The notes beneath the pieces were generated by a model. It did no database searches. It was not told the origin of the DNA and worked only from the letters and a program-made list of their open reading frames with translations. A DNA stretch of 46,102 nucleotides from a virus. The position numbers and the translations under genes are program-made. Below, piece after piece: positions 10,299 to 10,930 of the stretch (positions within the stretch are counted from its first letter, which is position 1; each line of letters begins with the position of its first letter). The stretch covers positions 1 through 46,102 of the IMG/VR virus record IMGVR_UViG_3300028883_000015, one strand, 5' to 3'.

Positions 10299-10930
10299 AA
10301 GGAAAAGGAAATGAAAACACCTTTCTAAACCAGAAGGTTCTTTGTTGAAAAACGAAACTACCCTCGAGGTAGACACTGCCCAAAGGATCCTTCTTCGCTC
10401 TTTACAATATACATTGGGTAGTCCTTCGAATAGAAGGCTACTCCCCCTATCTGGATTGATAGTATGGTGCTGACTGCCCAAAGGATATATATCTGGGTTC
10501 AGGGAGTAGCTTTTTAAGGAAAGCTATAAGGGAAATATTCATTGTGGGATGAATAGCGTCTTGGGGTGGGACGATAACTCACCCTTCAAGTTCTTAATAA
10601 CTGAATATATTTTATGAGGTACTTTGGTGGTGGAATAGGTAGACGCTAGGACAACCGAATAAGGTAAGAAATTAGTTAGTATCGGGAAGTACGCTTACTC
10701 TGTAGGGTGACTATACGGGTTATCATTAGAGACTACGTAGCAGATGATTAAAAGGTCAACGGACTCTCGTCAAATCCCTACCCAGAGTATCTCATTAAGT
10801 ATGTTCTTTATACAGATGGGTATATTGGCATTACAAGGAATTATAGACCTTGTGATGGTTGGTTGTACCAGCCGCCCTTTAGGAGTAATTACCTAGAACC
10901 TGACGGAGCTACTACGATGTCAGTAACATG
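10299..10930 (+). ncRNA. Large ornate structured RNA B (about 630 nt)
   Basis: There is no coding frame in a stretch dense with helices: GCTACTCCC/GGGAGTAGC (10437-10445 with 10502-10510), TAGCTTT/AAAGCTA (10507-10513 with 10520-10526), ATTCAT/ATGAAT (10537-10554), GGGTG/CACCC (10564-10584), CATTACAAGG/CCTTGTGATG (10829-10838 with 10848-10857), GGTTGG/CCAGCC (10857-10873) and CTGAC/GTCAG (10900-10923). The 14-mer ACTGCCCAAAGGAT occurs twice (10375-10388 and 10473-10486), each with a TGGGT partner downstream, so a structural module is duplicated. A tRNA-Leu-like domain sits at 10621-10788. Size, phage location and tRNA association recall the GOLLD and ROOL giant RNAs, but I cannot confirm either family by eye. 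No terminator is seen before the next gene. Confidence 0.75.
10621..10788 (+). other. tRNA-Leu-like domain with a disrupted interior, inside RNA B
   Basis: The 5' part reads like a tRNA-Leu: acceptor strand ACTTTGG (10621-10627), then TGGTGGAATAGGTAGACGC (10628-10646) with the usual D-arm. The 3' part has a T-loop-like TCAAATC, CCTAC and the acceptor strand CCAGAGT (10782-10788), which pairs with 10621-10627. No anticodon stem with a U33-containing loop follows the D-arm. Instead a bulged CCGAATA/TATCGG helix occurs, and the T-stem strand GTAGGG (10702-10707) is separated from its partner by about 65 nt including ATCAT/ATGAT. It is either a tRNA mimic or an interrupted tRNA; a functional tRNA is unlikely as written. 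Confidence 0.5.

Follow-up and report, generated by a model that had tools for sequence, protein, structure and literature searches.

A family of phage tRNA-like elements without an anticodon arm, one of them embedded in a large structured RNA

Results

A large structured RNA containing a tRNA-like domain

The window (the whole stretch of DNA analyzed here, 46,102 nucleotides of IMG/VR record IMGVR_UViG_3300028883_000015) is a phage record with terminase, portal, and capsid genes on the minus strand, and its closest named relative is distant (TerL, 35%). Between the open reading frames (ORFs) at 9828-10247 and 10980-11333 lies a 732-nt stretch with no ORF of 80 aa or more (10248-10979), which holds a large structured RNA of ~660 nt at 10262-10925. 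The ends of this RNA pair with each other (10262-10271 with 10916-10925, inverted repeat I3), and its predicted fold reaches -205 kcal/mol against -170 ± 7 in shuffled sequences (z = -5.4); four coding stretches of the same length nearby gave z values of +0.3 to -2.3. The original prediction had placed a tRNA-Leu-like module inside a large structured RNA, and the fold and the paired ends bear this out. We infer the exact ends, 10262 and 10925, from one sequence, since searches for homologues of the ~660-nt RNA came back empty: Rfam 15 returned no family for 10262-10925, even at a permissive threshold, and DNA scans with the repeat CTGCCCAAAGG or with the exact 28-nt D-arm of the window recovered none. 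In the stretches examined of a sister phage syntenic with the window (G004, 45.8 kb, TerL 59%), the tRNA-like element, the large RNA, and tRNAs are all lacking. Within this phage group the RNA is therefore accessory, as is the window's tRNA cluster, and it is not alignable. The tRNA-like element was also absent from relatives found through TerL (64 loci).

The features of the RNA and its tRNA-like domain are as follows (all on the plus strand).

10262..10925, +, large structured noncoding RNA with the tRNA-like domain inside (no ORF of 80 aa or more; end-closing inverted repeat I3; fold)
10615..10620, +, outward extension of the acceptor helix, 5' strand TGAGGT, pairing with ATCTCA at 10789-10794 (read from the sequence)
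10621..10627, +, acceptor stem, 5' strand ACTTTGG (covariance model alignment)
10628..10629, +, positions 8 and 9, UG (U8G9; UG in 153 of 154 relatives)
10630..10646, +, D-arm GTG-GAATAGGTAGA-CGC of the class II tRNA-Leu type (covariance model alignment, family comparison)
10647..10701, +, variable domain replacing the anticodon arm (helix GGTAAG 10663-10668 with CTTACT 10694-10699)
10702..10707, +, T-stem, 5' strand GTAGGG (covariance model alignment; covariation)
10708..10709, +, first part of the T-loop, TG (T54 G55; covariance model alignment)
10710..10770, +, 61-nt insert at the T-loop tip, between 55 and 56 (gap in the covariance model alignment)
10771..10775, +, second part of the T-loop, CAAAT (56 to 60; covariance model alignment)
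10776..10781, +, T-stem, 3' strand CCCTAC (covariance model alignment; covariation)
10782..10788, +, acceptor stem, 3' strand CCAGAGT (covariance model alignment)
10789..10794, +, A at the discriminator position (10789), then U; 3' strand ATCTCA of the outward extension, with no CCA (sequence)

The acceptor and D-arm of a class II tRNA-Leu that had been predicted at 10621-10646 are present, with U8G9 and with all 7 acceptor pairs in place (10621-10627 with 10782-10788; pairing probability of 0.99 for the outer pairs and 0.35 for the innermost), as are the T-loop and the acceptor strand that ends at 10788. An anticodon arm had been predicted to be missing, and none can be drawn; neither ARAGORN nor the Rfam tRNA model (RF00005) calls a tRNA at the domain. 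The helix of the variable domain stops 2 nt before the T-stem (window score of 12.5 at offset 2), in the same register as in the family described below. The predicted interruption of about 65 nt in the T-stem is real, but it is 61 nt long and lies in the T-loop, and the T-stem itself is intact (6 of 6 pairs, 10702-10707 with 10776-10781); all seven T-loop letters are present in order, split TG/CAAAT, with the insert placed by alignment to TGCAAAT and free to move by one base. The acceptor helix runs 6 bp outward into the ~660-nt RNA (TGAGGT/ATCTCA); none of 154 family members has an unbroken extension of at least 6 bp, and 2 have one if a single skipped base is allowed. The main internal caution is that a nearest-neighbor fold of the domain favors an alternative local pairing by ~5 kcal/mol (-49.9 versus -44.7), although such energies ignore elbow contacts.

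Several other features of the record may be noted. The motif ACTGCCCAAAGGAT occurs twice inside the large RNA (10375-10388 and 10473-10486, 98 nt apart), and no comparable setting elsewhere was found to contain it in doubled form. Two further long stretches (7492-8336 and 19189-20422) have no ORF of 80 aa or more, and positions 7640-7900 are G-rich on the plus strand, with runs of GGGGGTGGGG. The leader GTTAATTTTATTTATATAGAGAT recurs directly upstream of ATG starts (~11336-11358 and ~11608-11632) and is likely a promoter or translation leader.

A family of tRNA-like elements in phages

The domain had been taken for a one-off, but it belongs to a large family. A permissive blastn search of GenBank phages recovered short D-arm matches in regions left unannotated in Leuconostoc, Listeria, and Lactobacillus phages, and these regions held complete small elements with an acceptor stem, a D-arm of the Leu type, and a T-arm (for example, GTAGGG-TGCAAAT-CCCTAC), none of which ARAGORN calls. 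One blastn match (L031) was set aside as chance, its sequence having no tRNA-like structure. Two scans with T-arm patterns and further blastn searches extended the set to at least 120 viral-contig stretches and at least 118 genome-contig stretches. We refer to these free-standing elements of 75 to 260 nt as tRNA-like elements (TLEs). Among the matches listed, most of those that could be named lie in Bacillota phages or probable prophages. In the genome scan, most named hosts are Bacillota, with some clostridial MAGs and a few assigned outside Bacillota, which could reflect mis-binning. With a covariance model (CM) of the family at an E value of ≤1e-8, TLEs are present in 17 of 198 Lactobacillales genomes; the corresponding counts for the orders of two other reference genomes (G015 and G016) are 1 of 196 and 2 of 198, which include the references themselves, picked because they hold a TLE.

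Neither ARAGORN nor Rfam 15 called any TLE tested, and no description of the family was found in the open-access literature; subscription papers were outside the search, and a prior description is possible. Mimicry of tRNA as such is already known from plant-virus structures, YrlA, tmRNA, and mascRNA; because TLEs match no tested model and appear neither in Rfam 15 nor in the open-access literature, we regard them as new within this known theme.

The pairing that defines the family is very strongly covariant in the acceptor, D-stem, and T-stem. Among 158 non-identical sequences with both arms, 145 form at least 6 of the 7 acceptor pairs in the fixed tRNA register, compared to 18.5 with permuted acceptors (maximum of 27 in 200 permutations), and 154 relatives carry 112 different acceptors. 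In an alignment of 32 sequences, 99% of the cells for the 16 proposed pairs hold a standard pair (shuffled, 76%; slid, 34 to 45%), double-change cells number 130 versus 36 in shuffles, and the covariation score is 0.68 versus 0.19 shuffled and ≤0.15 slid. Because these 32 sequences were prefiltered for acceptor pairing, the unfiltered permutation test is the cleaner control for that stem. Preservation of acceptor and D-arm pairs in relatives had been named in advance as the support to look for, and the covariation and the permutation test provide it strongly. The pairing switch that the original prediction also raised did not survive this comparison: ACTCTG at 10697-10702 can form 6 bp on paper with the 3' acceptor strand, but the pairing is not conserved in homologues, being no commoner in the 154 relatives than when their acceptors are swapped.

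Outside these stems, the variable domain ranges from 23 to 206 nt, and a helix ends exactly 2 bases before the T-stem in 58% of 149 variable domains, compared to 13% of shuffles. An H-type pseudoknot in this domain, convincing by eye in a few members, was not above shuffles and was dropped. The discriminator is A in 61% of the family and the next base is U in 61%, while CCA follows in 2 of 145. In some members the same 6-bp stem is capped by a T-loop of the ordinary tRNA kind, TTCGATT or TTCAAAT. Nineteen members carry an insert in the D-loop, at GG in 18 of the 19, a counterpart of the window's insert in the T-loop; since inserts leave 19 other members at this matching point, the elbow tip appears to be a tolerated exit for them. 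The D-loop inserts of four members (L116, L141, L173, and L231) share the motif TCCTGCGGRGAGTARAYAAGGRCGTG...CACCTGANNACAGGRGCGCAGGTCACGG, as if one type of insert had spread.

The window domain as a member of the family

A CM built from 32 homologues, with the window left out, returned exactly 10621-10788 as the sole good match in the 46-kb window (46.5 bits, E = 1.6e-10; next match, E = 4.4). True tRNA-Leu genes score 21 to 39 bits against the same model (21.4 bits in one run and apparently 28 to 39 in another, where 80- to 85-nt rows were assigned by length), a range that the window exceeds, and typical TLEs score 47 to 85 bits; one phage (L100) gave three partial or divergent matches at 19 to 27 bits. 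Like its relatives, the window domain has a 7-bp acceptor followed directly by UG and the D-arm GTGGAATAGGTAGACGC, and a 6-bp T-stem that is flush with the acceptor 3' strand and preceded at 2 nt by a helix; what it lacks is the uninterrupted T-loop TGCAAAT (or TTCRANT), which the pattern-based scans demanded and the CM did not. The 22-nt D-arm GTGGTGGAATAGGTAGACGCTA of the window is found exactly in 6 contigs of the viral collection, and the four that were read directly are TLEs; the TLEs of phages phiJL-1 and B025 were read from GenBank. The domain at 10621-10788 is thus a TLE whose single deviation is its split T-loop, and so part of a phage family that descends from or imitates tRNA-Leu.

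Among the members seen, an insert in the T-loop is unique to the window copy. The pattern scans required an intact loop, so other split copies could not have surfaced there; the CM scan of three orders recovered the letter variants TTCGATT and TTCAAAT and, in the loci that were parsed, no split loop; another six did not fit the simple parser.

Genomic setting of the TLEs

The gene upstream of a TLE is codirectional with it in 107 of 116 cases, and 33 of the 116 upstream neighbors fall into two clusters whose representatives are late regulators of the RinA and ArpU families. In GenBank phages, TLEs stand ahead of HNH or terminase genes or within tRNA/tmRNA arrays: those of LP-101 and Sha1 lie between RinA/ArpU and HNH/TerS genes, those of JNU_P10 and VEsP-1 come just after ArpU, and others belong to arrays of tRNA or tmRNA genes in Herelleviridae and Tybeckvirinae. 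An array of tRNAs is no prerequisite, since about three quarters of 60 sampled TLE loci have no tRNA called by ARAGORN at all.

Some TLEs abut other small RNAs. Beside a phage tmRNA, at most 3 nt separate the tmRNA end from the TLE start (in L104 the tmRNA ends at 1493-1496 and the TLE starts at 1496; L109 is alike), and in Listeria phage B025 the Rfam match to the Listeria sRNA rliG (L093, 952-1189) ends at 1189 and the TLE starts at 1195, a reported gap of 5 nt. The mcrA RNA (RF03010) follows the TLE in L093, L105, and L106. Just past the TLE of L095 and L096 (about 1614-1700) is a second anticodon-less tRNA-like element, GCGGGATTAAGATAACGGTAGTCTA...CTGGTTCGACTCCAGAGTCCCGCA, with no ARAGORN call or Rfam listing, possibly another family of phage tRNA mimics. 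In Lactiplantibacillus plantarum EGD-AQ4 (L249, near 6728-6749), a TLE's T-arm and acceptor (CATCATGCAGGGTGCAAATCCTTGCCAAGCAC) come right after the repeat GGATCACCCCCGCATACACGGGGAATAG, which recurs at CRISPR-like spacing; this is apparently a spacer against a phage TLE.

Discussion

We characterized a family of phage elements that keep the stacked acceptor and T-arm and the D-loop/T-loop elbow of a tRNA without decoding; a variable domain stands in place of the anticodon arm, and TLEs therefore cannot decode. We infer that selection maintains the elbow (U8G9, the D-loop, and T-loop positions U54, C56, and A58) and acceptor pairing, while the acceptor sequence and the discriminator vary. Since elbow letters are kept and those of the acceptor and discriminator are free, it would be the shape of a tRNA that is read, not its identity, and host tRNA-handling factors that read shape would be the partners of TLEs. 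Recruitment of host tRNA enzymes, as proposed originally, is plausible as a hypothesis. For the free-standing copies the most likely readers would be RNase P and RNase Z, which may cut the TLE out of phage transcripts and so define the ends of neighboring RNA. They are the leading candidates because TLEs abut tmRNA, follow rliG, precede U, and almost never carry CCA; RNase Z of Bacillota acts on precursors that lack CCA and prefers a nearby U. The case for such processing is circumstantial, argued only from position and known enzyme preferences. For the window copy, whose acceptor helix is continuous with the surrounding RNA and whose insert exits at the elbow tip, excision is unlikely; this copy most likely stays in place and probably acts as a tRNA-shaped domain for docking or folding within the ~660-nt phage RNA. 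We assign a probability of about 0.6 to this reading as a whole, namely, a family of elbow mimics read by shape, with RNase P and RNase Z acting on the free copies and a resident domain in the window. A broader proposal, that TLEs are a dedicated phage class of non-decoding mimics in which the elbow serves as an adaptor in transcripts and giant RNAs, with ports for inserts where the anticodon would be and at the tips of the D-loop and the T-loop, and commandeers host tRNA-handling machinery, is more tentative, and we would lean somewhat against it in this full form.

Other readings account for parts of these data. TLEs might be bound and perhaps charged by the host leucyl-tRNA synthetase (LeuRS), or titrate EF-Tu or tRNA-modifying enzymes, with altered translation or evasion of a tRNA-targeting defense as the aim. 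Bacterial LeuRS does not need the anticodon and uses A73 and features of the D-loop, and the Leu-type D-arm is kept almost letter for letter, with an A discriminator in 61% of the family. However, A73 is missing in the other 39%, the acceptor sequence is free (112 types in 154), the acceptor/T stack is 13 bp and not 12, and A73 in the window is paired into the extended helix, all of which make this reading unlikely. We give a similarly low standing to the view that the TLE is no stable RNA but the cis-acting start of a phage late transcript, serving antitermination, processing, or translation control; the RinA/ArpU-cluster genes upstream in 33 of 116 cases and the placements in LP-101, Sha1, JNU_P10, and VEsP-1 fit it, but not the copies within the tRNA/tmRNA arrays of Herelleviridae and Tybeckvirinae, nor the window copy, which lies away from the late genes on the terminase side. 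Slightly less probable again is a module whose role is purely architectural within a giant RNA akin to GOLLD or ROOL, the elbow being a folding device that recruits nothing. The embedding through an extended helix, the exit of the insert at the elbow tip, and the strong folding of the surrounding RNA would all agree with such a module, and GOLLD can carry tRNAs in its linker (PMC12286853), but the Rfam models of GOLLD, ROOL, and OLE have no match in the window's large RNA, and many phages carry the same module as a free-standing element, which must therefore be of use without a giant RNA.

Two further identities can be set aside. Bacterial Y RNAs of the YrlA type, which mimic tRNA and partner Ro60, resemble the window RNA in carrying a tRNA-like domain on a long stem and have been reported in phages, Y RNAs having been proposed in a Listeria phage study (PMC12282133). 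We reject this identity because RF02553 has no match at the domain at E values up to 10 and the record has no TROVE (Ro60) gene, leaving it a very slight chance. A decayed tRNA-Leu gene, or one interrupted by a group I intron, is the least credible reading of all and is refuted by the covarying family: the 5' half is indeed tRNA-Leu-like, but the features foreign to tRNA (the TGCAAAT loop, the 6-bp T-stem, and the helix 2 nt before it) are common to covarying relatives. A group I intron core had been named as one finding that would refute a mimic; no intron family, RF00028 included, is found even at E values up to 5, and neither flank holds anticodon half-arms.

The TLE family has been missed by standard annotation tools, yet it recurs across many phage groups, where its members adjoin late regulators, terminase genes, tRNAs, and tmRNA. 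Phages thus keep the tRNA elbow as a module apart from decoding, and the family offers a testable handle on the role of such mimics and of at least one giant phage RNA.

With bacterial class II tRNA-Leu the TLEs share U8G9, the D-arm GYGGAATNGGTAGACRC, a 7-bp acceptor, and the position of the T-arm, but they differ in having no anticodon arm, a 6-bp T-stem (a 13-bp stack), a T-loop that is usually TGCAAAT, and a variable domain of widely varying length; the window copy differs further in its split T-loop and in having no free 3' end. The tRNA-like domain of tmRNA (RF00023) also has an acceptor/T stack without an anticodon arm, and phage copies adjoin TLEs, but the D-arm of TLEs is of the Leu type and includes a D-stem, neither a tag reading frame nor the pseudoknots of tmRNA were detected in them, and there is no CM match, the window domain matching neither RF00023 nor the tmRNA search of ARAGORN. 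YrlA (RF02553) likewise sets a tRNA-shaped module on a longer stem, as in the window, but differs in sequence and CM and in its link to Ro60, which the record lacks. Plant-virus tRNA-like structures and mascRNA show that tRNA mimicry lets an RNA use tRNA enzymes; the window TLE differs from them in its unrelated sequence, its double-stranded DNA phage setting, and its internal position. Finally, the giant phage RNAs GOLLD and ROOL are, like the RNA of the window, structured phage RNAs of ~600 to 800 nt that often lie near tRNA genes, but the window RNA stands apart from them in Rfam searches, and its tRNA-like part is non-decoding and built into a helix.
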